Positions 50,811-64,000 of a stretch of 64,000 bases of DNA are shown piece by piece; position 1 is the stretch's first letter, and the number at the start of each line of letters is the position of its first letter. This stretch comes from Desulfobotulus pelophilus (GTDB taxonomy: Bacteria > Desulfobacterota > Desulfobacteria > Desulfobacterales > ASO4-4), in assembly GCF_026155325.1 (NCBI RefSeq), contig NZ_JAPFPW010000001.1, forward strand, positions 310,001-374,000, written 5' to 3'. The notes beneath the pieces were generated by a model that was given only the letters and a program-made list of their open reading frames with translations, made no database searches and was not told where the DNA came from. A program made the position numbers and the translations under genes.

Positions 50811-50865
50811 TACTGATGATTTTTTTGTGATGGTATCGGAACTTTTTATCTGGGAGAGGATTGGT

Positions 50866-53256
50866 ATGAAGGCCCTGGGGATTCGTTTGAAAATGGTGGC
50901 AGGTATTTCCCTGCTTCTCTTGCTTGTGTGTTTCATGGGAATATTCGGTTATCAGCGTCTGGTGGATGTGGTGCACTATGCGGAGATCAAGGATGCGGGG
51001 GACGAAATTTTTACGCATATTCAGGATGCAAGGCGACATGAGAAGGATTATCTGCTGTTTAACGACGAAGCCCATTATCATCTGCTGCAGGAAACCTTTG
51101 ACCAGATAGAGAGCAGGGCTCTGGCCGTTCGCCAGCTGGTGGGCGGCAGTGGTGTACTGGGCGGCGGTATCGCCGGTGTGCTGGAGAGCATTGGCGCATA
51201 CAGGGTGGCGGCGGACGAGATGCGTGCAGGTAAGGAGGCCAATCGTGAGATAACGGAGCGACTCGGTGCCATTTCCGATGAGATTGAGATGGTGGCGGAA
51301 TCCATGGCTTCGGGAGCCGCCGGAGAAATTGCGCTGGAAGTGGGAAGGACTGGCGGGCAGGAAACGGAAAATGATGCGGTAGAGGGTGTCAGGAATACGG
51401 TAGCCATCGCCCATGGTCTTTTGCAGTATTTTCATGAAACCGGTATGAGCCGGGAAAGGGCTTTTGCCGCCCTGCGAAGTCTTCGATTTGGCGATGGGCT
51501 GTATTTTTATGTGCTGGATCAAAGAGGGCGTTTTGCCGTGCATGGTACAGTTCCTGAACTGGAAGGACGGCATGCGGATATGTTTGTGGATCCTGTAACC
51601 GGCAATTCCTTTCTTGTGGAGTTGCTGGAGCATATCCGTGGGGAAGAGGAGGGTTTTGTGCGTTATTCATGGCCTGCTCCGGGAGACAAGGGGGGGATGG
51701 AGCGTAAAATAGCCTATGCCCGGTATTTTGAGCCATGGAAGGTGAGTGTGGGCAGCATTATTCTTGTGGATCAGGTGGAGGAAAGAACGGAGATTTTCCG
51801 AAATGTTGTGGCAGAGGGTATTGAGCGATATGCCAGGGCACGGGATATGGAAACCCTTACCCTGAAAGGGCGTATTGCTGCTCTTTATTACTATTTTACC
51901 AACAGTTCCGATGTGGATGATGTGGAGTGGTATCTGTTGCAGGCCCGTAATATTCCCGGTGCTGGCGAAGAAATGGCCCTGCTGGTGGATCAGTATCTTG
52001 CGGGTTTCGAGCAGTGGCAGGTTCTTCGGGAGAGGGACAGGGAACTGCAGGAGGAAATTCGTGTGGTGGCACGTTCCGGAAGAGATTCCGTACAGGCTGT
52101 GGCCGACAGGGTTCATGGCTTTTTTGATAATGCGGCTGCCGCGGGCAGAAACGGTCTTCTGGTGGCCATGTTTTCAGGCTTGATTGCCGGAGGGCTGATA
52201 GCGGCTTTTCTTCTGCGGTCGGTGACCAGGCCCATTCAGGCAACGCGGGATATGCTGCAGGATATTGCGGAGGGAGAGGGTGATCTGACCCGGCGTCTGG
52301 AAGTTGGGACCCGTGACGTGCTGGGAGAAATGGCTGCATGGTTCAATCGCTTTGCAGAACGTATTCGTTCCATGGTGGCGGATGTTGCCGGACATGCGGC
52401 CAGCCTTGGGGACTCGGCGGCGGATCTTTCCGGTCATGCCGATGCCATGGGCAGGGAAATGGAGCGCAGCCGGAGTCTGTCTGTGCGTATCGAAGAAGCG
52501 GTCGAGGAAGCCAGTGAGGATATGCAGACCGTGGCGGCAGCCATGGAGCAGGCGTCTACCAATCTGGAAATGGTAGCCGCATCCAGTGAGGAAATGACAG
52601 CTACCATTTCAGAAATTGCCATCAATGCGTCAAAGGCAAGGGAAATATCCGAAGTGGCTGTAGGGCGTGGGACTACGGCTGTGGAGCGGATGACAGGTCT
52701 GGGGCTGGCAGCCCGCAGTATTGATGCGGTGACCGAGGCCATTGAAGATATTTCTGCCCAGATCAATCTTCTGGCCTTAAATGCCACCATAGAAGCTGCC
52801 AGAGCAGGGGATGCTGGAAAGGGCTTTGCCGTTGTGGCGGGAGAAATCAAGGAGCTGGCCCGTCAGACAGGTGATTCCACCCGGGAAATCAAGGCCCGCA
52901 TTGAAGAGATTCAGACCGGTACCCGGAGTGTGGAAGAAGAGATCCGTGCTGTGGGAGAGGTACTCAATGAGGTGGAACGTATTGTCAGTACCATTGCCTC
53001 TGCCGTGGAAGAACAGTCCGTTTCCATGAGGGAAATGGCATCCAATATTTCTCAGGCTGCTCAGGGAATCGGTGGGGTGAATGAACGGGTGGCGGCATCG
53101 TCTCAGCGCACCGATCATATTGCAAGGGATATGCGAACCATGGGTGAGGCGGTTCAGTCCATGGATACTACCAGTACTCAGGTCCGTGCCCAGGCAGCTG
53201 CCCTTTCCGGGCTGGCCGGAGATCTGAGAACCATGGTAGGGCGTTTCCGTACCTGA
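50866..53256 (+). CDS. Methyl-accepting chemotaxis protein
   Basis: Chemoreceptor of 796 residues. Helix one spans about 7-29. A helical-bundle segment with ARRHEKDYLLFND near 55-67 recalls the HBM domain. A Cache-like domain covers about 195-300 (AFAALRSLRFGDGLYFYVLD, VSVGSIILVDQVEE), followed by more helical sequence to the second membrane helix at about 428-452. HAMP follows, then the signalling domain whose tip INLLALNATIEAARAGDAGK is near 633. ATG 50866 has GAGAGGA before it; GTG 50827 is less likely. No other chemotaxis gene is in the window. Confidence 0.93.
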   Translation: MKALGIRLKMVAGISLLLLLVCFMGIFGYQRLVDVVHYAEIKDAGDEIFTHIQDARRHEKDYLLFNDEAHYHLLQETFDQIESRALAVRQLVGGSGVLGGGIAGVLESIGAYRVAADEMRAGKEANREITERLGAISDEIEMVAESMASGAAGEIALEVGRTGGQETENDAVEGVRNTVAIAHGLLQYFHETGMSRERAFAALRSLRFGDGLYFYVLDQRGRFAVHGTVPELEGRHADMFVDPVTGNSFLVELLEHIRGEEEGFVRYSWPAPGDKGGMERKIAYARYFEPWKVSVGSIILVDQVEERTEIFRNVVAEGIERYARARDMETLTLKGRIAALYYYFTNSSDVDDVEWYLLQARNIPGAGEEMALLVDQYLAGFEQWQVLRERDRELQEEIRVVARSGRDSVQAVADRVHGFFDNAAAAGRNGLLVAMFSGLIAGGLIAAFLLRSVTRPIQATRDMLQDIAEGEGDLTRRLEVGTRDVLGEMAAWFNRFAERIRSMVADVAGHAASLGDSAADLSGHADAMGREMERSRSLSVRIEEAVEEASEDMQTVAAAMEQASTNLEMVAASSEEMTATISEIAINASKAREISEVAVGRGTTAVERMTGLGLAARSIDAVTEAIEDISAQINLLALNATIEAARAGDAGKGFAVVAGEIKELARQTGDSTREIKARIEEIQTGTRSVEEEIRAVGEVLNEVERIVSTIASAVEEQSVSMREMASNISQAAQGIGGVNERVAASSQRTDHIARDMRTMGEAVQSMDTTSTQVRAQAAALSGLAGDLRTMVGRFRT

Positions 53257-53257
53257 T

Positions 53258-53284
53258 CCGGGAGAGGGGGCTTTTCCCGGTTTC
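53258..53284 (+). terminator. Possible terminator after the chemoreceptor
   Basis: CCGGGA (53258-53263) pairs with TCCCGG (53275-53280), extendable by weak pairs, followed by TTTCTG. It begins at the stop codon. A second stem, TTTCCGG (53413-53419) with CCGGAAA (53434-53440), lies further on. Confidence 0.4.
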
Positions 53285-53544
53285 TGTGGAAAGGTGCCTG
53301 GATTCTGTATGAGAAGATCTTGCGGAAAATATTTTTTTTTGACTATGGTTCTTTTGGGTTTTGTGCAGGATAATTGATCAGGTTGAATGACACGGTCTGA
53401 TTTTCTTACCTTTTTCCGGTCCCTGTCTGGGGGCCGGAAAGGGGAATCGTCCAGGCGGTAAAAACATTGTTTACAAGTACAGACAGGTCTTCTTTTTGTT
53501 AGGTTTTCGTTCTGAATTTCAGGCTTATCAGCCGGGGGGGATCA

Positions 53545-55941
53545 ATGATCAGGCAAAACCAGAGGGAAGAAAGAAGAGGTCGGGGGGACTTTTCAGGAAA
53601 AGAGGGAAGAAAAAATCTTGAAGCGGAGCTGGACCGACTGAATGCGCTGGTCACCCTGCTCCGCCGGTGTAACCATGCCCTGCTGCATGCCAGTGATGAA
53701 AAGTATCTGCTGCGTGAAGTTTGCATGGCATTGGTTGCCATGGGACGCTACCGGCTCTGCTGGGTCGGTTATGCGGAAAAGGATGAAGAAAAGAGGGTCC
53801 GAACGGTTGCTTTCTGGGGGGATGAGGACTCCTATCTGGACAAGGTCTGTGTTTCATGGGGGGAAAGTGGCCCCGGTTCCGATGCGCCTACGGGCATTGC
53901 GATCCGGACAGGCAGCCCCTGCAGGCTGCAGCATCTCGACCGGCAGATGGCCGGTGATGCAGGATCGTGGCAGGCTTCTGTTCAGGGTCGGGATTTTGGA
54001 TCGGTGCTGAGTCTTCCTCTTATTCTTGCCGGTGCCGGGAGGCCCATGGGAGCTCTGACCTTGTATTCCAGGGATCCCGAAGGCTTTTCCGATGCGGAAG
54101 TACGGCTTCTGGAGGAACTTGCCGAGGATATTGCAAGCGGTATTGAACATCTGCATCGCAGGCTGGAACGGTACAGGGTGGAAGAAGCACTCCGGCTGGC
54201 GGAAGCCCGCTATGATGGTGTTTTGGAAAATACGGGGACAGGCACCATTCTTATTGAAAATGATGAAAGGATCCGTTTTTGTAACGCTACTTTTGCGAGA
54301 ATGACCGGCTATACCCGGGAGGAAATTGTCGGGAGAAAAAAGTGGAAAGATTTTGTTGTGAGAGAAGACGTCCGGCGTATGGAGAACTACCATGTCTGGA
54401 GACGGGCGGAACCTGGAAGGGCCCCGTCCGTTTATGAATGTCAGTTTTTGGACCGTAACGGAGACGTGCGGGATGTACTGATGAAAGTCGGGATGGTGGA
54501 AGGAACGCTGATGAGCGTGGCTTCTTTTATGGATATTACGGAAGCCAAAAGAGCAAGGCATCTTCTGCACGAGCGGGAAATGCAACTGGCGGCGGTTGTC
54601 AACCATCTGCCCGGTCCGGTTTTTGTGCGGGATGCAAAGGCAAGAGTTGTTTTTGCCAACCTGCGTCTCATTAATCAGACAGGCTATAATCCCGAGGGTG
54701 AATACTGTTACGCAATTTTCTATGGCAGAAAAACGCCCTGTCCGGATTGTCCCGTGGACCGTGTTTTTGCAGGTGAAACCGTGCGAAGGGAGGTTTTTTT
54801 TCCGGACGATGGGCGGTGGTATGAGGTGATTTATGCTCCCATATCCGGATTCGACGGTACGGTTGGTCGGGTGCAGGTGGTTTTTATGGATATTACGGAA
54901 CGTAAAGCAGCAGAATCTGCGCTGATGGTTCGTGAAGAAAGCCTCAGGGAGGAGAACCGGCGTTTACGTTCAGCTATTCAGGAGCGCTGGCGTTTTGGAG
55001 GACTTGTTGGGAAAAGCCAGGTGATGCAGGAAGTATATGAAAGAATACTGAAGGCAGCAGCGGGTACCAGCAGTGTGATTATCTATGGTGAATCAGGAAC
55101 GGGCAAGGAGCTGACGGCCCGGGCCATTCATGATATGAGTGAGCGGGTACGGGGGCCTTTTGTGCCGGTGAACTGTGGTGCCATCAGTGAAAATCTGGCT
55201 GAAAGTGCATTTTTTGGACACAGAAAAGGTGCTTTTACGGGTGCGGACCGGGATCGTCACGGGTATCTTGCCGCAGCGGATGGCGGTACCCTGTTTCTGG
55301 ATGAGATTGGTGAAATCCCTCTGTCCATGCAGGTAAAGTTGCTCAGAGCTCTGGATGGCGGTGGTTTTACGCCTGTGGGAGGAACGGAGGTACTTCGTCC
55401 TGATATTCGGGTAATTGCGGCAACAAACCGGAACCTTTATGATCTTTTGCGTGAAAACAGAATGAGGGATGATTTTTTTTACAGAATTCATATTGTTCCC
55501 ATACGGTTGCCCGCCCTGAGGGACCGCAAGGAAGACCTGCCCCTTCTGATGGATCATTTTTTTACCAAGTATGGTGCCGGTAGGGTACTCCCGCCCATAA
55601 CGGGAAAGTTGCTGGAAGCGTTTACCAGTCATCGCTGGCCGGGGAATGTACGGGAATTGCAGAATGCGGTTCAGCGCTATCTCTCTTTGGAAAAGCTTGA
55701 TTTTTTAGGTGAAAGGGACTCCTTTACAGGGGCTGCCGATGAACTGGCCGAAGAGGAGGCGCTGGTTCCACGGGTGGATGCCTATGAAAAAAAACTGATT
55801 GTGGACGCTTTGCACCGTCACCAGTGGCATAGGGAGAATGCGGCGGAGAGTCTTGGCATTCATCGCAAGACTCTGTTTACGAAAATGAAAAAATTCGGGC
55901 TTCTGAATGAGCATTCCTCCCATGGTGCCGCCCGTTTCTGA
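53545..55941 (+). CDS. Sigma-54-dependent transcriptional activator with GAF and two PAS domains
   Basis: Enhancer-binding protein of 798 residues. A GAF domain covers about 35-205, PAS 1 about 220-335, and PAS 2 about 345-455 with a cysteine pair in KTPCPDCPVDRVF. The AAA+ domain has Walker A GESGTGKE, the sigma-54 contact loop GAFTGA, and Walker B GGTLFLDEIGEI. A Fis-type helix-turn-helix ends it (RENAAESLGIHRKTLFTKMK). It lacks a receiver domain, so it should answer a small ligand or redox signal. The target genes are unknown; no clear -24/-12 promoter was found in the window. Confidence 0.94.
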   Translation: MIRQNQREERRGRGDFSGKEGRKNLEAELDRLNALVTLLRRCNHALLHASDEKYLLREVCMALVAMGRYRLCWVGYAEKDEEKRVRTVAFWGDEDSYLDKVCVSWGESGPGSDAPTGIAIRTGSPCRLQHLDRQMAGDAGSWQASVQGRDFGSVLSLPLILAGAGRPMGALTLYSRDPEGFSDAEVRLLEELAEDIASGIEHLHRRLERYRVEEALRLAEARYDGVLENTGTGTILIENDERIRFCNATFARMTGYTREEIVGRKKWKDFVVREDVRRMENYHVWRRAEPGRAPSVYECQFLDRNGDVRDVLMKVGMVEGTLMSVASFMDITEAKRARHLLHEREMQLAAVVNHLPGPVFVRDAKARVVFANLRLINQTGYNPEGEYCYAIFYGRKTPCPDCPVDRVFAGETVRREVFFPDDGRWYEVIYAPISGFDGTVGRVQVVFMDITERKAAESALMVREESLREENRRLRSAIQERWRFGGLVGKSQVMQEVYERILKAAAGTSSVIIYGESGTGKELTARAIHDMSERVRGPFVPVNCGAISENLAESAFFGHRKGAFTGADRDRHGYLAAADGGTLFLDEIGEIPLSMQVKLLRALDGGGFTPVGGTEVLRPDIRVIAATNRNLYDLLRENRMRDDFFYRIHIVPIRLPALRDRKEDLPLLMDHFFTKYGAGRVLPPITGKLLEAFTSHRWPGNVRELQNAVQRYLSLEKLDFLGERDSFTGAADELAEEEALVPRVDAYEKKLIVDALHRHQWHRENAAESLGIHRKTLFTKMKKFGLLNEHSSHGAARF

Positions 55942-56044
55942 AAAGGGGTGTGCTTCCGCTGAGGCTGCATACAAGATCGGAGCTGCGGTGGGCTGATTGT
56001 CGTCTGATCAGACTGACGGGCTGGGGATGTACGGAGGCATCATC

Positions 56045-56085
56045 GGGTGGCTGCCTTTGGCAGGGCTCTGGCAGCCACCCTTTGC
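56045..56085. terminator. Stem-loop between converging genes
   Basis: Perfect 11-base stem GGGTGGCTGCC (56045-56055) and GGCAGCCACCC (56070-56080), followed by TTTGCTGTTT. It probably ends the sigma-54 activator transcript about 100 bases past its stop. Confidence 0.65.
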
Positions 56086-56088
56086 TGT

Positions 56089-56235
56089 TTACTGGGAAAT
56101 GCCGGATAAAGCCCGCTCAATGAGGGCTATCTGCTCAGAATTATTGGCTGGCTGAGAGTCGTTGTCTGCTGGTTTCACCGGTCCTTTTCTTTTTTCTTCA
56201 GCCTGTTTCTGTTCCGGTATATGGGATGCACACAT
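56089..56235 (-). CDS. Very small hydrophilic protein, unknown
   Basis: A 48-codon reverse ORF starting MCASHIPEQKQAEEKRKG, rich in Glu, Lys, Gln, Asn and Pro with a helical end IALIERALSGISQ. The support is an excellent AGAGGAGGT site seven bases before the ATG at 56235 and a stem-loop just past its stop. No family is recognised and no neighbour shares its strand for 1.8 kb. Confidence 0.45.
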   Translation of the reverse strand: MCASHIPEQKQAEEKRKGPVKPADNDSQPANNSEQIALIERALSGISQ

Positions 56236-56866
56236 GGATTGAACCTCCTCTTGTTGCGACAATGGAAACACTATATGCTACCCTTTCCCCTGCGGTTGAG
56301 CAGGATGCGGCCTGTCCTTTGAACCATGACTCTGACTGGGTACCCTGGCTCACCCATGCTTACCTTTGTTCAGGAGAAGATCAGGCCAGCCATATCCTCT
56401 ACCATGGCAAAAAACATGATTCAATTCCAAATACGTATGCGTATCCATGGGTGTCCAGTTTGCCGGGTAGGGTGGATCAATATGGAGAAACACTATTCAA
56501 ACAGGGGATTACCGGATGACGTCTGCTGTTCTTATTCTGGCAAGCTCAGGTGCTGCCAGTTTAAAAAACAGGGAGGTTTTCTCTGCATGTTCATCCGACA
56601 CTCGATAAGGGCAGGTACCCTTTGTCAGGGCCTTGATTCCCATGGACAATGGCTGTTTGCCACTTGCCCCATATCGTAGCGTAAGAAGGGTATTGTATCC
56701 CAGAAACAGCCCCGCCAGTTTGTTTTTTTTTGTGAGGATGCTTGAAACAATAAGGCTTCCGGTGATATTTGTCTTGACATCTGCCGCTGCAGCTATAGTA
56801 CGCATTGCTTCAATGATGTTTTGTTTGACCATCACCCGTATGTATCAAACCTTTCTTGAGGTGGTT
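56236..56866. other. Gap without a confirmed gene
   Basis: A 631-base stretch. A reverse frame at 56509-56835 (108 codons, GTG/ATG start, no good ribosome site) has a somewhat protein-like sequence (IIEAMRTIAAAADVKTNI) but lies opposite another open frame that extends into the binding-protein gene. Two forward frames at 56226-56519 and 56326-56679 lack support. It may contain degraded coding sequence. Confidence 0.4.
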
Positions 56867-58021
56867 ATGCGCATTCTGAGATCAACGGTTCTGACCCTTT
56901 TACTGCTTGTACTTCTCATATCAGAATCATGGGCTGGGCAGTATCCCGTAACTCCTGTGACCAACAACGGTGAAAAATGGCGTATAGGCTATCTGGAAGG
57001 TGGAATGTATCCCGACTATCAGATCATTTTTTTCAGGACAGTGAAAGGACTGATGGAGCTGGGCTGGATTGGCCCCATGGACCTGCCGGAAACGTACAAC
57101 CCCAATCACAGACAGGCATGGCAGTGGCTGGCTGAAAATGTTCGTTCGGATTACCTGGAGTTTGTCGGTGATGCATTTTATACATCCGAATTTAAGGCTG
57201 ATCAGCGTGTCCGGACAAAACAGGAACTGATTGACCGGCTTAGTAAGCAGAACGATCTGGATCTGATTCTGGCCATGGGAACCTGGGCAGGACAGGATCT
57301 GGCCAATGATGAGCATTCCACTCCCACGGTGGTGGCCTCCACCAGTGATCCTTTGGGATCGGGAATCATCAAAAGCGCGGAAGATTCCGGATTCAGACAT
57401 CTGCACGCCAAGATTGAACCTGACCGATATATACGTCAGTTACGTCTCTTTCATGATATTACCCATTTCAGGACCATGGGTATAGTGTTTGAAGACACTC
57501 TGGAAGGCCGGACCTTTGCTGCTGTAGCTGACGCCGAACAAGTGGCCAGGGAGCGAGGATTTGAACTGAAAACCTGCCATGCCCGAAACAGTGACATCAC
57601 TCTGGGGCAGGCCGCCCGGGAAGCGCTTGCATGCTATGAAAATCTGGCACCTCAGGTGGAGGCCATGTATATCACTGTTCATCGGGGGGAAAGTCTGGAA
57701 AATTTGCCCAATCTTCTGAACCCATTGCTTAAAAATGGAGTGGCCACTTTTGCCATGCCGGGATCGGAGTTTGTGAAGAACGGTGTCCTTCTGAGTATAG
57801 CCCATGCTGACTTTGCCTACGTAGGCAGGTTCCACGCCGAGACCATGGCCAGAATATTCAATGGAGCCAATCCCTCAAGCTTGGAACAAAGGTGGGCCGC
57901 GCCATCAAAAATCGCTATAAATTTAAAAACAGCTGAGACCATAGGATTCGATCCTCCCTTTGATGTGCTGGCTGCAGCCGATGAAATCTATGACCATAAA
58001 ACCGGGGTAAGTCAGCGATGA
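56867..58021 (+). CDS. ABC-type substrate-binding protein (ABC_sub_bind family), orphan
   Basis: Exported binding protein of 384 residues. The start ATG 56867 has a GAGGTGG site and gives a clean signal peptide (MRILRSTVLTLLLLVLL, cleavage after SWA near 23). The two-lobed body contains DLILAMGTWAGQDLAND, PTVVASTSDPLGSGI and RTMGIVFEDTLEG, which match the TrpX-like ABC_sub_bind pattern. The open frame upstream has no site. No permease or ATPase gene is adjacent, so it may serve the converging sensor-transporter operon or a sensor. That link is inference. Confidence 0.85.
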   Translation: MRILRSTVLTLLLLVLLISESWAGQYPVTPVTNNGEKWRIGYLEGGMYPDYQIIFFRTVKGLMELGWIGPMDLPETYNPNHRQAWQWLAENVRSDYLEFVGDAFYTSEFKADQRVRTKQELIDRLSKQNDLDLILAMGTWAGQDLANDEHSTPTVVASTSDPLGSGIIKSAEDSGFRHLHAKIEPDRYIRQLRLFHDITHFRTMGIVFEDTLEGRTFAAVADAEQVARERGFELKTCHARNSDITLGQAAREALACYENLAPQVEAMYITVHRGESLENLPNLLNPLLKNGVATFAMPGSEFVKNGVLLSIAHADFAYVGRFHAETMARIFNGANPSSLEQRWAAPSKIAINLKTAETIGFDPPFDVLAAADEIYDHKTGVSQR

Positions 58022-58092
58022 TGCTTGTAATTTATAGACCTCCAGGATTTACACTGTGCCATTAGGTTCTGGCAATGGGTCTTCTAAGTCTG

Positions 58093-59601
58093 TCAGATCG
58101 GGACAATTCTTCTTTCCAGCGTAAGTTTCGCTATTCTTTCCCTGACAGACCCGGTCATGCGGCTCAGGCGATCCAGGGCACGGTCTGCGCCGGTTTTTCC
58201 GGTTTGCAATACCCATAAGGGATAATCCAGCATCCATTGGTGCTCGGAGTCGAGCCCCTGTGCAGCTGTTTCCACAACATGCATGCAAAGATCTTTAACT
58301 TTTATTCCATTGTATTCGCCGTCCAGTGCGTTTTGAACAGCTTCATTCCGTAAACCCAGAAGATCCGTCCAGCGATATTGCTTCATCAGCATGGCCGTTT
58401 GGCTAAGATTTCTTAAAAGCCCGTACTGCATGGCACATGGTGAGATAACAAGAGAGCTTGCAATAGTGGATTTGTCCAGTCCGGCCAGATCCCTGTCCGG
58501 ATAGTTGGCCCCGGCAGCCCTACCTTCCAGATAGCAGAAGCGAATAAAGGGAGCTAAAAATTCTTCCAGCTTATCCGGGTAGTTGTCCATGATATCCATG
58601 AATTTACCCAGATCAGGTCCCTTGTCATTCAGGCCGTAGCGTATCCTGCAGTCTGTGTATTGGGTGAACTGATGATCAACCAGATGACGGATGCCCGGAG
58701 TAATTCTTTTTTCGGTTTTGTGGAAAAAAGATTTGGCCTGACATGGCCCGGACTTGAGAAAATCAAGCAAGGGTGGATCACAGGGGATGAGATACATATC
58801 CGCAGGGTTTTTGAGGCTGTCAGCTTCGGAGACAAACCACATACTGGTTCCGGCACCAAACATCCATTTCAGGTAGTCTGCCAGATTCCGAAAGGGTTTG
58901 GCAGGAGCCATGTGCAGTTTCCTGTCCCCCATCATTCTGGAACAATTCATTTGCCTTGACCAGAGGGTGAGTCTGTTTTCCTTGAAGCCTGTAATCCTGC
59001 CCGCTTCAAAGGGGCTGTTGGCATAGAGGGCTATAAAGGCCGGTGCAAGACCCAGAAGACAATTGAGTCCCGTTACGGCATCTCCAAGGTCTGTTTCCGT
59101 ACTTGGGCTGTTTTGCGCTTTGGCATCGAAACCGGCCATGTGGTTCCATTTTCGATACTCCGTCTGATAGTTATAAATGGAGCGTGGTGCGCGTACAGAG
59201 GTATAAAATGCCGGGCTTATTCTGACATCAGGATGCTCGCTGAAGTTTATGACCATGGCGTTTTCCCGATCCAGGGCAGCGGAAATATCCTTCAGTTCCC
59301 GACGGATCAGTCTGTGCAGCTGGCTCAAGCTGTCTTTTTCCTGCCTGACAGGTCCAAGGGAACTCTCAAGGTTGTTGAAACCATTGTCAATGGAGTGCAG
59401 ACCCTGCGCACACTTCAGCCCATAATCCCTGCCATGATATGCAAGAAGTTCTCCCTTTTCTCCCCGCAACGCTCTGATCTGCTGCAGATTGCGAAAAAAT
59501 GGACCAACAGGATGGGTCTCTCCGGTCCGGACAAGGGCTGTGGGCATTTCAAGTTCAACACCAATGGAAGGAAAAACGGGGTGTTTTTTCAGGGTGGTCA
59601 T
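58093..59601 (-). CDS. Glutamate-cysteine ligase family protein
   Basis: ATP-dependent carboxylate-amine ligase of 502 residues. The front, FPSIGVELEMP, carries the conserved glutamates of the GCS2-type nucleotide and metal site. HSIDNGFNNLESSLGPV, INFSEHPDVRISPAFY and RMMGDRKLHMAP are further conserved-looking segments. It would join the gamma-carboxyl of glutamate to an amine such as cysteine or another amino acid. No glutathione synthetase is near. The start overlaps the MFS stop by four bases (ATGA), so it is the third gene of the racemase operon. Substrate uncertain. Confidence 0.82.
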   Translation of the reverse strand: MTTLKKHPVFPSIGVELEMPTALVRTGETHPVGPFFRNLQQIRALRGEKGELLAYHGRDYGLKCAQGLHSIDNGFNNLESSLGPVRQEKDSLSQLHRLIRRELKDISAALDRENAMVINFSEHPDVRISPAFYTSVRAPRSIYNYQTEYRKWNHMAGFDAKAQNSPSTETDLGDAVTGLNCLLGLAPAFIALYANSPFEAGRITGFKENRLTLWSRQMNCSRMMGDRKLHMAPAKPFRNLADYLKWMFGAGTSMWFVSEADSLKNPADMYLIPCDPPLLDFLKSGPCQAKSFFHKTEKRITPGIRHLVDHQFTQYTDCRIRYGLNDKGPDLGKFMDIMDNYPDKLEEFLAPFIRFCYLEGRAAGANYPDRDLAGLDKSTIASSLVISPCAMQYGLLRNLSQTAMLMKQYRWTDLLGLRNEAVQNALDGEYNGIKVKDLCMHVVETAAQGLDSEHQWMLDYPLWVLQTGKTGADRALDRLSRMTGSVRERIAKLTLERRIVPI

Positions 59602-62003
59602 GTTTTTGCCTGCAGGCCTTCTCTGGCGAAAAAAAGAAAAAGAATAGAAAGAAGCATATAGCCAAGCCCAAGAACGACCAGTCCCTGAGAAATGGAGACC
59701 CCGGACATGAGTGCGCCCAGTGTGAGAGGGCCAAGCATCTGTCCCAGTTTGTCCGCTGCCCGCTGAATGGACATGGCTTTGCCTACGCCAAAGTTTTCCG
59801 TTGACCGGAGCTTCAGGGCAAAGGCTGTCTGGGCAGAACTGCCGATGCTGCTGGCCAGACCAAGGAGAAAGATGGCTATTACGATCATCAGAAAACCCTG
59901 ATGTATGTACAGAAGGCTGAGTCCTAAGCCTCCAAGGAGTCCTCCTGCCACAATGAAAGGTTTTTTGTTTTCTCTGCGGTCTACTATTTTACTTAGCTGG
60001 GGGGCCAGATACACAACAGACAGCCCATAGATCATAAGAACCCTGCCGATATCTGACTGACTCATGCCCAGCCCGTTCAGGTAAAGTGGTGTGGCAAAAA
60101 AAAGAAGCCCGACCTGACAGATGGAAAAGGGGATGATGCAGAAAAAAGTCAGGGCAACGACATTCCGGTCCCTCATAAAAACCAGCAGGGAGCTTGCCTT
60201 TACGGCAAGCTCCGGAGGAGCCGGAGCCGTCTGTCCTTTGAAACGCTGCATGAAAACCATGAAAAATACAAGGGATGCCAGAGCGAGGAGCATACCCACC
60301 AGAAAAACCGGAGGATAGCCTGTGCGTTCGGCCAGTATGGCTCCCAGAGCAGTCCCGCAGATATGGCCGGAAAAAATTCCGGCCACAAAATGGGAGCTGC
60401 CTCTGGCCCTTGTGGTGGGGCTGCAATGGGTAAAAAGAAAGTTCTGCAGGGCCATCCATGAAAGCCCGTAGCCCAGTCCGCATACTCCCCTTGCCAGAAT
60501 GAAAGCAAGGCCGTTATCGGCCATGGCGCTGAAAAATAATCCTGCGGTTGTCATCAGTATTCCGCAGACAAAAGGTGTACGCCAGTCCCGTTTGTCTGCC
60601 ATGGCGCCCGCAACCAGCGATGCCCCCAGAGCACAGAGCATTTCCAGGGAAACAGGCAGTCCCAGGATTATATTTTTGGGTAATCCCGGAATGGGCGTGT
60701 ACAGTTCGCGCATCTGCAGCGGTACGAAAGACACGGGCATGGCAAATGCCAGTAAAAAAAGAAAAGCAGCAAATCGTGCCAGCATCAGATTGTCCAGTAC
60801 ATCCTGATCTGTATGGGGTTTGTCGGGGTTTCTTTTTTTTCTGCGGATGTGGGATATCATGAAGTAAATTTGCTCCACAATGAGCAGGGATGCAATCAGG
60901 GCAATGGTCAGGGAGTCCAGAAGCAGCTTTCTGATAAGATTTTTCATGGAAGATTTGTCCAGGACCGCCCGGATTTCTCCCAGTACAGAGTTATCGGTAT
61001 TTTTGATGAGGGGCACGGCGACCCACAGGTCATCCTGTGATTTGCCGTCTTTTTGTGCGGACATATCCTGCCGGTCATTTTTTGAAGCATAGGCCTGAAT
61101 ATTTCCGGCCTTGTCCAGAATGGTAAGGGAGGCAATTTCAGGGTTGGTTTCAATTACTTCCATCAGGTAGACATCCATGCGGCTGATTCGTTCCAGAGCA
61201 ATCCCGGATGCAAGGATACGTTCCGTGGTAGATTTCAGGAGCTGAAGCTGGGCCTGAATCTTTTCTTTATTCAACTGGACGTGGTCTCTGTGGAATTGAT
61301 ATACGCTGATGCCTGCGAAAGCAGCCTGGGTCAGAATAATTATTGTCAGAACCCTGAAGAATATGATTTGGTGCAGGTCATGTCCGTTAAGTTCCGGAAT
61401 CCTTGAAAGGAGGGTGAAGAGAGCTCCTCCTGCCAGAATGGCAATCACTGCGCCCAGTATCAGCCTTTTTCCCCAGAAATCCCGTATCTCGGCTTTTATC
61501 TCATGTTTGTGGAATGAGAAGACCAGGCTGCCAGCCATGGTACCGGCAGTTGTCCCTGTCCCCGTCCATGTTTCTGCAGGCCCGGCGAGAGGTAACATGA
61601 TCCGATACGCATCGCTGGTTTCGAGAAGCTGCATGGATGGATCGGGAGAATCAATTCTTTTGCCCTGTATTTGTGCTGAGTAAGGGTACTTTTCGGGCAG
61701 AGGCCTCATGCTGTAGACAGGGATATGGCGTGCATCATAGATTTCGATGTTGGAAAGGGTCTGGTACATGGCCGCATAGCCAGCCATTTCCTTTTCAATG
61801 CCGATAAGATTGTCCAGGGATTTCCCAAAACGCAGGGCGGCTTCTATTTTTCTTTTGAAATCCTTCTGTGGCACTGCGTATCCGGCAAGTTCCGAGGAAA
61901 CAAAGATTTTTTCAAAGGAGTTGGAGACCAGAATCACCATGAATGACAGGGATAAAAAAAGAATAATAATGGACAAGATGATGATACTCTGATTTCTTCT
62001 CAC
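59598..62003 (-). CDS. MFS transporter with two N-terminal extracytoplasmic sensor-like domains
   Basis: An 801-residue membrane protein. A helix at about 7-27 is followed by an outside region of about 150 residues and a helix near 183-205. A third helix (about 218-238) leads to a second outside region (about 240-370) with the Cache-like strand SLTILDKAGNIQAYASKND, then a fourth helix and a basic linker. From about 415 a twelve-helix MFS domain follows (LEMLCALGASLVAGAMADKR, RGVCGLGYGLSWMALQNFL). Sensor domains on an MFS carrier are unusual. It overlaps the racemase upstream and the ligase downstream by four bases each, so the three are coupled. Confidence 0.87.
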   Translation of the reverse strand: MRRNQSIIILSIIILFLSLSFMVILVSNSFEKIFVSSELAGYAVPQKDFKRKIEAALRFGKSLDNLIGIEKEMAGYAAMYQTLSNIEIYDARHIPVYSMRPLPEKYPYSAQIQGKRIDSPDPSMQLLETSDAYRIMLPLAGPAETWTGTGTTAGTMAGSLVFSFHKHEIKAEIRDFWGKRLILGAVIAILAGGALFTLLSRIPELNGHDLHQIIFFRVLTIIILTQAAFAGISVYQFHRDHVQLNKEKIQAQLQLLKSTTERILASGIALERISRMDVYLMEVIETNPEIASLTILDKAGNIQAYASKNDRQDMSAQKDGKSQDDLWVAVPLIKNTDNSVLGEIRAVLDKSSMKNLIRKLLLDSLTIALIASLLIVEQIYFMISHIRRKKRNPDKPHTDQDVLDNLMLARFAAFLFLLAFAMPVSFVPLQMRELYTPIPGLPKNIILGLPVSLEMLCALGASLVAGAMADKRDWRTPFVCGILMTTAGLFFSAMADNGLAFILARGVCGLGYGLSWMALQNFLFTHCSPTTRARGSSHFVAGIFSGHICGTALGAILAERTGYPPVFLVGMLLALASLVFFMVFMQRFKGQTAPAPPELAVKASSLLVFMRDRNVVALTFFCIIPFSICQVGLLFFATPLYLNGLGMSQSDIGRVLMIYGLSVVYLAPQLSKIVDRRENKKPFIVAGGLLGGLGLSLLYIHQGFLMIVIAIFLLGLASSIGSSAQTAFALKLRSTENFGVGKAMSIQRAADKLGQMLGPLTLGALMSGVSISQGLVVLGLGYMLLSILFLFFAREGLQAKT

Positions 62004-63133
62004 AGGGTTGTTCCATCATAAAAGTATGTTTTTTCCGTATTCTTAAGAAGAGGTAAAAGTACTTCCCAGATTCCGCTGCCCGCACTTCTGGCTGCCTGAT
62101 ATAAATTGATGTCAGGGCCTGCCAGGAAGACTTCGCTGCCTGCCACAGTTTCCGATATACCGCTGACATCCAGCATGCTCTGGGCCAGAGCAGGTTTGCC
62201 TATGAGGGAGCATTTTTTGCCATGCACCACAGGGAATAATTTCCCGGGCAGCATGCTGTGCAGGCCCTGATCAAAACCGCACTGAATGATTGCAATTCGT
62301 CCGTCCTGTTTCATCTGATGGGAGCCGTGGTAGCCGATGCAGGCATTTTGAGCGACATCCCTGATCTGAATGATTCTGGTCGAGATCTGGGCTATGGGAG
62401 AGGGTTCTCTTTCCCATCCGTGAACTCTTTCTGCATATCCGTAGAAGAGGGTGCCAATCCGCAGAGCATTCAGTCTGCCACTGCACACCATGTCCGGAAA
62501 ACCAAGAAGTCCTGTGGAACTGCCCAGATGAACCATGTCCGGCATCAGGTTTGATTGTTCCAGTCTGTCAAGAAGGCGGTTAAAAGTCTGGCACTGTTTT
62601 TCTGTAAATTCCTTGCTTTTGGTGTCGCTTTGAAAGGAGCAGGCCAGGTGGCTGTAAATTCCATCCACCTGGATATGAGGGATCGGGTCCAGCATGTCCA
62701 TAACTTCCTCAACCTGATCAGGATGAAAGCCAAATCGGCCCAGGCCGGTATCCACCTTGATATGAACCCGAAATTTTTGGGCAGCGTCCGCTTTATAGGC
62801 TGCCAGTCTCAGGGCAAAATCAGGGTCAGCCACTGTCAGGGTGAGGTTGTATTGAAGGGCAAGGCTCAGGTCGGGGTAAAGAGGGTCGTTCAGTGCTAAT
62901 ACCGGACAGTTGATTCCGGATTTTCTGAGGCGTATTCCCTCGTCCAGTTCTGAAACCACGAGGCCGTCAAGGCCTGCTTCGACCATGGTCATGGCTATCT
63001 GCAACAGGCCGTGACCATAGGCGTTGCATTTCGCAACGCCCATGATTCTGATGTGTTCAGGCACATGGCTTCGGACCAGAGCAATGTTTTTTTTCAGAAT
63101 TTCCAGATTTATACGGGCAGCCAAATGCATCAT
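62000..63133 (-). CDS. Alanine racemase family protein
   Basis: PLP-dependent fold III racemase of 377 residues. The PLP lysine lies in MGVAKCNAYGHG near 32-43, where most alanine racemases have VVKADAYGHG. The barrel continues with KVDTGLGRFGFHPDQ. The C-terminal domain contributes the second catalytic Tyr in CIGYHGSH. It is first in the reverse operon with the sensor MFS and the ligase, so it may make a D-amino acid for that pathway rather than for the cell wall; no cell-wall genes adjoin it. Start at 63133 or one codon later; ribosome site weak. Confidence 0.88.
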   Translation of the reverse strand: MMHLAARINLEILKKNIALVRSHVPEHIRIMGVAKCNAYGHGLLQIAMTMVEAGLDGLVVSELDEGIRLRKSGINCPVLALNDPLYPDLSLALQYNLTLTVADPDFALRLAAYKADAAQKFRVHIKVDTGLGRFGFHPDQVEEVMDMLDPIPHIQVDGIYSHLACSFQSDTKSKEFTEKQCQTFNRLLDRLEQSNLMPDMVHLGSSTGLLGFPDMVCSGRLNALRIGTLFYGYAERVHGWEREPSPIAQISTRIIQIRDVAQNACIGYHGSHQMKQDGRIAIIQCGFDQGLHSMLPGKLFPVVHGKKCSLIGKPALAQSMLDVSGISETVAGSEVFLAGPDINLYQAARSAGSGIWEVLLPLLKNTEKTYFYDGTTL

Positions 63134-63628
63134 AGATTTCAGACTTAGGGTTACCCCAGAACATTGAAGGGGGAGATTGGAAAAGTTACTGAAGAATGAC
63201 CCAAAAACTAAATAATGCTTGCAGCTGAATGTAGATAGAAAACGTTGAAATCAGTATCAGATTTAAACGGATTCATACAAGAAATAAATGGAAGCGCTGA
63301 AAGCGCAATTCTGAAGCTAAGGCCATAACTTCTGAGGAGAAAGGGCGTCGGCTCTGATCACATCGTCCATAGTATATAAAAAATTCTGATTATCCCACGG
63401 GTCCAGACATTGCTTTGAACGGGTTAACAACTCAGAATTTTCCTTTGCTAACCGGCATGGCTGAAAGAAGGTGCAATCAGGATGTTTTTTTGCATTTGTT
63501 TAAGGGAACTGATCGTCTGTTTTGCTGAGCGGCTTTACGGAAATTTACTTGACGCCGTGGTTGATTATGGTCACATGGGGTATGAAAAAACAGGATTGAT
63601 TTCGGAATTGACGCCATGGAGGAAAAGG
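63134..63628. other. Divergent regulatory gap
   Basis: A 495-base divergent region between the racemase operon and the thioesterase gene, A/T-rich in its middle. It holds two near-identical direct repeats, TTGACGCCGTGG (63549-63560) and TTGACGCCATGG (63608-63619), and an imperfect GGTTA/TAACC pair near 63421-63453. No gene is supported. Confidence 0.5.
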
Positions 63629-64000
63629 GTGACAGACGTAATGGAAAATCATGATATCATCCTGAAACGGCTTGCAGAAGCAGGAGGGGAACTTGGGGAC
63701 CATTTTGTCACCCCTCCCTGTTTCATCACTTCAGGAGGAATTTTTACGCAATACCAGGAGGGGTGTTTCCTGGCCTGCCGTTTCAGCCATGACAAAAGCC
63801 TGATCAATCCGGGAGGTTCTCTGCAAGGGGGCTTCCTCATGGCAGCCTTTGACAATGTGTTTGGTCCTTTTTCCATCCTGGAATCGGGAAGAGCGGCCGT
63901 TACCCTTGATTTGAACGGTACCTTCCTGCGCCCGCTGATGGAAAGCGATCGTTTTTATTCTGTACGGGCAATGATGATCGAAAGGTCCGCCAGGTTTCTT
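63629..64000 (+). CDS. Hotdog-fold thioesterase (PaaI-like), partial
   Basis: The first 124 codons of a gene that runs off the window. The sequence has the PaaI-type pattern: CFLACRFSHDKSLINPGG, then GSLQGGFLMAAFDNVFGP covering the hotdog central helix, then TLDLNGTFLRPLME and MMIERSARFL. It probably hydrolyses acyl-CoA or aryl-CoA thioesters. GTG 63629 is preferred because GGAGG stands six bases before it; ATG 63641 in the same frame is the alternative. Confidence 0.82.
   Translation, partial: MTDVMENHDIILKRLAEAGGELGDHFVTPPCFITSGGIFTQYQEGCFLACRFSHDKSLINPGGSLQGGFLMAAFDNVFGPFSILESGRAAVTLDLNGTFLRPLMESDRFYSVRAMMIERSARFL

Follow-up and report, generated by a model that had tools for sequence, protein, structure and literature searches.

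The window, 64,000 nucleotides of Desulfobotulus pelophilus DNA (GCF_026155325.1, contig NZ_JAPFPW010000001.1, positions 310,001-374,000 of the forward strand; genome G000), carries a small gene set in which a carrier of the major facilitator superfamily (MFS) with two sensor-like regions, a ligase of the GCS2 family and an exported substrate-binding protein lie together, with a racemase gene at one end. The set is described here from its genes and predicted folds, from its recurrence in other bacterial genomes, and from the sensor and synthase genes that accompany it there.

The gene set in Desulfobotulus pelophilus

Three genes of the set are read from the reverse strand and joined by four-base overlaps. 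The first encodes an Alr-family enzyme (62000-63133, reverse strand; Pfam PF01168 and PF00842, Ala_racemase_N and Ala_racemase_C), apparently a diverged second copy with an accessory role, and its stop overlaps the GTG start of the carrier at GTGA (62000-62003, reverse strand). The carrier (59598-62003, reverse strand, from the list of open reading frames; PF07690, MFS_1, on residues 411-733) ends in ATGA (59598-59601, reverse strand), which also starts a carboxylate-amine ligase of a distinct GCS2 subfamily (58093-59601, reverse strand; PF04107). Convergent with the ligase is the gene for the binding protein (56867-58021, forward strand; PF04392, ABC_sub_bind), with the motif VHRG at residues 271-274. 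An earlier account of this DNA made from its letters alone (the sequence-only reading) had proposed this arrangement, and the coordinates, the two junctions and the Pfam families agree with it. Desulfobotulus alkaliphilus, the nearest relative in the genome scan, with a ligase 85% identical, has all four genes in an identical layout, and its open reading frame coordinates give identical four-base overlaps. The binding protein had further been called an exported one without a permease; its start is signal-peptide-like when judged by eye, and no permease or ATPase occurs among the six proteins of 50827-63133 in the Pfam run, a genome-wide lack of a permease not having been tested.

The ligase matches Pfam GCS2 (PF04107) with 33.8 bits against a gathering cut-off of 21, covering positions 56-183 of the 291 in the profile. 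Its predicted model, with a mean predicted local distance difference test score (pLDDT) of 89.1, is closest in fold to plant glutamate-cysteine ligase 2gwc (Z 37.3, root-mean-square deviation 2.7, 400 residues aligned) and then to YbdK (Z 33.0), with bifunctional glutathione synthetases at 21.9 and the next families at 21.9 or below; judged from this model, the whole chain appears to adopt the glutamate-cysteine ligase fold. The enzyme shares that fold and the motif ANSPF...G...R..W with plant glutamate-cysteine ligase, YbdK and EgtA of the GCS2 superfamily. It differs from the plant enzyme and YbdK in sequence, with 16-19% identity over the structural alignments of this chain of about 500 residues, and from the named GCS2 members in its own invariant motifs DN.FN.LE, R.W.H and DAKA. 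Five NCBIfam models matched and all fell far under their cut-offs, the best reaching 24.1 bits against 176.4 and EgtA 20.8 against 370.8, which speaks against a plain glutathione-type enzyme, the outcome that the sequence-only reading had set against itself. The genome contains one other GCS2 gene, on contig C2 at about 293236-295928 (L001:11-2703), with a four-base overlap with a RimK-like ATP-grasp gene (Pfam RLAN). This second enzyme likewise stays under the cut-offs of the NCBIfam ligase models that it matches (59.2 against 176.4), and from its neighbour it appears to form a separate ATP-grasp and GCS2 pair.

In the AlphaFold2 model of the carrier (pLDDT 78.6), two domains, each built of helix and then strands (about residues 30-165 and 237-350) and each lying between long presumed membrane helices, precede a many-helix MFS part, and it is because of this predicted order of helices and domains that the two are presumed to lie outside. 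The MFS half resembles VMAT2 (Z 40.8 over residues 401-797), SotB (37.6) and NorA (37.5), which we take to be DHA1 antiporters, with Z of 37-41 over roughly 355-390 residues; unlike these, the carrier has about 400 additional N-terminal residues that hold the two presumed outside domains. Structures of SLC37A4, MCT, PepTSt and the D-galactonate symporter score Z 36-40. The outside half is the least conserved, at 25% identity against 48% for the MFS half. Searches with the whole carrier were filled by MFS folds, and the secondary structure of the outside domains is a long helix followed by strands. The N-terminal 400 residues of the window carrier reach 13.4 bits with dCache_1 (cut-off 45), and the best Cache match in ten carrier relatives is sCache_3_3 (E 1.9e-4, below cut-off). 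No convincing solved relative of the N-terminal half was found (best E 0.25), and a fold search in viral proteins gave nothing at E <= 0.001. A profile link between these domains and the Cache domain of the phosphatase described below was tried and discarded (hhalign probability 3.7%).

The binding protein matches PF04392 with 40.3 bits (cut-off 25.9) and is the most conserved member of the set, with a mean identity between groups of 0.55 against 0.41, 0.375 and 0.374 for the others. Its family includes the TrpX-type aromatic amino acid binding proteins (3lft with Trp, 3lkv with Phe, and 6hni, CD0873, with Tyr), and residues 124-371 align with the TrpX model NF041285 at 48.3 bits, for a cut-off of 390. 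It differs from the TrpX type in having VHRG in place of TDN and in lacking an adjoining permease or ATPase; a Giesbergeria permease used as query matches nothing in the window. VHRG is present in 15 of 15 ligase-linked binding proteins, and TDN stands at this position in the Giesbergeria protein that is linked to an ATP-binding cassette (ABC) transporter and in a canonical second copy in genome G390. Elsewhere the position reads SDS (a carrier-fused copy), VQQG (a variant with a GNAT gene), LNC (variants with a peptide synthetase), or IHRG and AHQG (kinase-linked copies), the IHRG protein belonging to a genome without the ligase. Judged from the family alignment, the VHRG position may touch the ligand. 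Solved relatives hold Phe, Tyr or Trp (PMC6816091). The second, canonical PF04392 protein of G390 (L042:7627-8664; 243.4 bits, TDN type) is encoded directly upstream of the carrier.

The racemase is the least constant of the four genes. It scores 231 bits with TIGR00492, above the cut-off of 168, and the genome encodes another Alr, at G000:C3:126950, that scores 377.5 bits and is 30% identical to the one in the set. The cassette enzyme is thus not the sole candidate for the cell-wall alanine racemase, as the sequence-only reading had conceded it might prove to be. Cassette racemases of D. pelophilus and D. alkaliphilus are 79% identical; the CMD motif of the genome's other Alr, a motif with a role in the Alr active site, is ALA in the window enzyme and ALT in that of D. 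alkaliphilus, and the AYGHG lysine region is kept in both. The window racemase aligns best with serine racemase 4ecl and matches the VanT-G catalytic model, in which it resembles VanT-type serine racemases; it departs from these in scoring 237.4 bits, below the VanT-G cut-off of 460, in having no fused membrane domain, and in the change of CMD to ALA. Among the 16 stretches with the ligase (4.6-64 kb), the racemase is present in two, both from Desulfobotulus, with two contigs (L009 and L012) ending too early on that side to tell. The claim that it belongs to the core of the operon therefore has to be dropped, and, going by its distribution among the loci found, it appears to be a Desulfobotulus accessory. 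In D. alkaliphilus (L008) a DapF-like gene adjoins the binding protein gene (91.5 bits against a DapF cut-off of 114.65, with CGNG and CGTG motifs). No counterpart or remnant was found around the binding protein of the window, and the best match in the genome is 57.9 bits on contig C8. Such a gene was considered as a universal substitute for the racemase and rejected, being seen only in D. alkaliphilus and in one genome described below (G233, L071).

Conservation of the set across loci

The carrier, ligase and binding protein genes lie side by side at 15 of the 16 loci of the ligase family, which fall in nine groups from Desulfobacterota, Alphaproteobacteria and Betaproteobacteria (some placed by genus name); at one of the 15 (L009) the carrier runs into a contig edge. 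The 16 loci consist of 10 of 11 loci from the genome scan, the window, four loci from searches of group samples (G390, G787, G805 and G934) and the Aureimonas AU20 locus from a plasmid search. One scan locus (L018) was dropped as an edge fragment of the same Burkholderiaceae metagenome-assembled genome as L012, judged to be the same gene, and three pairs of records for the same places (L015/L047, L017/L049 and L016/G403) were each counted once. The scan seeks close relatives via six short peptide patterns, so there are at least 11 such loci. The groups are the Desulfobotulus type (3 loci), G390, BRH_c16a, the Giesbergeria type (2), Azospirillum, Tianweitania, Aureimonas (3), the Tistrella type (3) and G787. 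Co-occurrence in other genomes had been proposed as the check on the idea of a functional unit, and for these three genes it extends far beyond the genus.

The ligase is rare, occurring in 2 of 395 sampled Desulfobacterota genomes (that of the window and G390), in 5 of 385 from the class of Aureimonas (the starting genome and Tistrella included), in 1 of 369 from the class of Giesbergeria and in 1 of 297 from a further group sample, the last two being the starting genomes themselves. Gene order varies, from a carrier-ligase pair facing the binding protein gene, with or without a phosphatase gene behind it, to ligase, phosphatase, binding protein and carrier in Giesbergeria; it is therefore content and not order that is kept. 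Across eight representative loci, homologue distances correlate between carrier and ligase (r 0.84), carrier and binding protein (0.90) and ligase and binding protein (0.61), with Mantel p of 0.0002-0.0074, and a shared history of the organisms could be the cause of part of these correlations.

Several features lie close to individual copies. The whole cassette is carried on plasmid pAU20a (489 kb) of Aureimonas sp. AU20 (93678-100923; L050), near genes for a type VI secretion system. In Tianweitania an integrase-core (rve) gene (L014:13049-14089) is located about 2 kb from the cassette, and in Giesbergeria a complete ABC set of binding protein, permease and ATPase lies directly upstream of the ligase. 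In the window, the set is bordered by genes for a Cache chemoreceptor, a GAF-PAS sigma-54 activator and a 4HBT thioesterase (50827-55941 and 63482-64000). These genes were discarded as members, being absent from the other 15 ligase loci, where the SpoIIE gene of L083 alone matched the chemoreceptor query, weakly (26%).

Phosphatase neighbors and variant sets

A gene for a dCache-SpoIIE phosphatase, with a HAMP domain in those profiled, adjoins the set at 10 of the 16 loci, placing a membrane sensor gene beside the binding protein gene; the same pairing is seen at L071, L092 and L093. In G390 the phosphatase gene is about 2.3 kb from the carrier. The RsbU/SpoIIE partner switch consists of a SpoIIE phosphatase, a STAS antagonist and an RsbW kinase, and the parts recur here: at G787 (L045), RsbW-like HATPase and STAS genes precede the phosphatase gene beside the cassette. 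In the window genome the phosphatase is unlinked, and the gene for its one full-length relative (37% identity over 664 residues) lies on contig C10, where STAS and RsbW-like HATPase genes immediately precede it (L026:7929-10793), an arrangement like that of D. alkaliphilus. The cassette-linked phosphatases depart from the RsbU/SpoIIE switches in an input through dCache with an adjoining binding protein.

At lower similarity, phosphatases of this type are widespread in the phylum, and orthology thus rests on a tree. In a tree of 33 rows, one node (91/98) unites the three Desulfobotulus-type phosphatases with nine of the eleven that are linked to a cassette, apart from generic Desulfobacterota Cache-SpoIIE proteins; the Tistrella, G805 and G934 sequences in it are near-identical, as are those of Giesbergeria and the Burkholderiaceae metagenome-assembled genome. 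The C10 phosphatase is, on this phylogeny, a probable orthologue of the cassette-linked ones. The composition given by the sequence-only reading stood for the three core genes that are kept together and fell short for the phosphatase, which it missed, the gene being on another contig in this genome. At two further loci (L072:6358-8370 and L073:4990-6978), a gene directly beside a Cache-SpoIIE gene encodes a PF04392 domain and a membrane carrier in one chain (the carrier part of L072 matches Pfam Mem_trans), with STAS and HATPase genes nearby.

Other genomes, taken to be among the 395 Desulfobacterota genomes (G213, G233, G036, G190, G109 and G076), lack the ligase but have other parts of the set. 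In G233 (L071) these are the carrier, the binding protein and the SpoIIE phosphatase, and their neighbors are a GNAT protein (FeeM match 19.7 bits, cut-off 27) and a DapF-like epimerase, which passes its cut-off with 124.2 bits. In G190, G109 and G076, of one desulfobacterotal genus (L094-L100), a full-length carrier relative and a PF04392 binding protein end a cluster for a non-ribosomal peptide synthetase (NRPS). The G190 carrier relative has 27% identity over about 800 residues, and the G190 synthetase has 5657 residues with polyketide synthase (PKS) domains, its first 2000 residues being 82-84% identical in G109 and G076. The cluster also holds a type II thioesterase, a phosphopantetheinyl transferase, a KamA-family radical S-adenosylmethionine enzyme (265.1 bits, cut-off 199.2), a band-7 protein and an ABC transporter of the cyclic-peptide type (281.9 bits against a cut-off of 286.2). 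In G213 and G036, the neighbor of a binding protein of this kind is a hybrid kinase with dCache or a PAS kinase, with no carrier in either genome. These GNAT, NRPS and kinase variants indicate that the pair of carrier and binding protein goes with varied synthases, and the binding protein with membrane sensors. At L092:8735-13240 (G213), a binding protein with an HRG signature adjoins a dCache hybrid histidine kinase, and this genome, which lacks both ligase and carrier, is a possible listener.

What the set may make, release and sense

The gene content, co-occurrence, overlaps, folds and phylogeny, the unlinked related phosphatase with its STAS and kinase genes, and the other synthases beside the pair of carrier and binding protein point to a cassette that would make, export and sense a small amide of an amino acid, with synthase, pump, receptor and output; we give this roughly an even chance (about 0.5). 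The GCS2-family ligase would couple an amine to a carboxylate, for which the gamma-carboxyl of glutamate is a candidate, and in Desulfobotulus the diverged racemase of the same operon would probably supply a D-amino acid; that the product is a gamma-glutamyl or D-amino-acid compound is a guess. The MFS half of the carrier would then export the product, and product that has already left the cell may control the pump through the two outside domains. In the periplasm, the binding protein would catch the product and present it to the dCache domain of the HAMP-SpoIIE phosphatase, which would dephosphorylate the STAS protein so that the target of the RsbW-like kinase is freed or captured by partner switching. 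The sequence-only reading had suggested that the product is made, released and sensed outside, and the Cache-SpoIIE genes beside the set elsewhere, together with the NRPS and GNAT/epimerase variants, fit that suggestion.

A precedent for such a circuit is LuxP/LuxQ, a periplasmic binding protein and a membrane sensor. At 10 of the 16 loci, the window not among them, the set is like LuxP/LuxQ-type autoinducer sensing in pairing an exported binding protein with a membrane sensor that has an outside domain, along with a putative small-molecule synthase; unlike it, the set has a SpoIIE phosphatase as output rather than a histidine kinase, a synthase of the GCS2 family, a sensor-fused MFS carrier and a binding protein of PF04392. 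By analogy, its mode of working may resemble that of an autoinducer circuit with a binding protein, coupled to a partner switch. No description of the set was found in the open-access literature, the sole library searched, in accord with the earlier remark that no described system of this composition was known.

A number of observations weigh against the make, export and sense interpretation. Every chemical step is inferred, as are the direction of export, the identity of the ligand, the contact of the binding protein with the phosphatase, and the purpose, be it self-sensing or signalling. MFS importers score near the exporters (PepTSt and the D-galactonate symporter at Z 36.3), and since they lie within 5 Z of the best matches, the fold does not fix the direction of transport; the resemblance of the outside domains to Cache is weak. 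Azospirillum doebereinerae (L013) has the ligase without an adjoining carrier or binding protein, and a search at E 1e-60 found no carrier anywhere in this genome; G213 (L092) has a binding protein with the HRG signature but lacks both ligase and carrier; and the GNAT variant and the NRPS variants each come from a single lineage. Further points concern the phosphatase. The window-genome copy is on another contig, and its link therefore rests on the tree node, below the starred level of support; related phosphatases occur in 49 of 297 genomes of the phylum at E 1e-60; a sister clade unites the linked phosphatases of L071 and L083 with those of L053 and L054, which adjoin a fusion of binding protein and membrane carrier; and phosphatase distances correlate weakly with those of the other proteins (five loci, r 0.57-0.75, p 0.03-0.14). 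A search at E 1e-40 found no SpoIIE protein of this kind in Tianweitania or Desulfobulbaceae BRH_c16a and, in Azospirillum, only a C-terminal match.

Detoxification or catabolism would use the same parts without a self-made signal: the binding protein and Cache-SpoIIE protein would respond to an amine or an aromatic amino acid from the environment, the ligase would gamma-glutamylate it inside, and the MFS carrier would move substrate or product. Intracellular gamma-glutamylation of amines has a model in the gamma-glutamylpolyamine synthetases, amine-glutamylating ligases of related fold exist (1-naphthylamine GS is among the structural matches, at Z of about 12-13), and both the aromatic amino acids reported for solved relatives of the binding protein and the complete ABC set upstream of the Giesbergeria ligase are in keeping with such a role. 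The NRPS/PKS and GNAT/epimerase variants, however, look biosynthetic, and the binding protein of the set does not have the TDN motif of the ABC-linked copy; we regard this explanation as unlikely, if a serious contender. Were the carrier instead an importing receptor-transporter, with the ligase trapping imported amino acid as a gamma-glutamyl derivative, the set would serve nutrient scavenging. The fused outside domains would suit that role, as would an MFS fold that leaves direction unfixed and scores well with PepTSt, the D-galactonate symporter, SLC37A4 and MCT, but the top structural matches are to VMAT, presumably a DHA1-type antiporter, and the association with an NRPS argues in the other direction, making scavenging improbable.

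Staphylopine clusters combine a histidine racemase of the DapF family, an MFS exporter and a binding protein, a parts list that resembles the present one and raises a metallophore, in which a DapF-like or Alr-like racemase and a joining enzyme would make a chelator to be exported and recaptured. An NRPS neighbor in three genomes would fit; the recurrent partner, however, is a SpoIIE phosphatase, amino acids are the ligands in solved relatives of the binding protein, and the Giesbergeria ABC permease, as query over the 16 ligase stretches, matched Giesbergeria alone, whose ABC set has its own binding protein. A metallophore is accordingly hard to credit. An ordinary glutathione-type ligase and a housekeeping racemase that are neighbors by chance would account for the GCS2 and Alr Pfam families, for the plant glutamate-cysteine ligase as closest fold and for a racemase that passes the TIGR00492 cut-off. 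Against this stand the low scores of the five matching NCBIfam ligase models, the better-scoring Alr elsewhere in the genome and a neighborhood kept across phyla, which already contradicts chance adjacency and makes this the least credible account, very improbable indeed.

More tentatively, and doubtful as it stands, the make, export and sense interpretation may extend to a new class of chemical communication. A sensor-gated MFS pump and a soluble receptor would form an exchangeable module for release and listening, fitted to different amide-forming synthases (a GCS2-like ligase, GNAT with epimerase, or NRPS/PKS), with receptor pocket residues that vary with the synthase and an output through a Cache-SpoIIE switch or a hybrid histidine kinase; some genomes would keep receptor and sensor alone and listen in. 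If the fusion of outside domains to an MFS carrier is as read here, it would be a pump able to read the outside concentration of its own export. The tie of pump and receptor to NRPS and GNAT/epimerase genes, if true, would provide a handle for finding small-molecule systems that have gone unnoticed, and if the product is a secreted signal, then synthase, pump, receptor and output would be contained in one small set, patchily distributed among distantly related bacteria.

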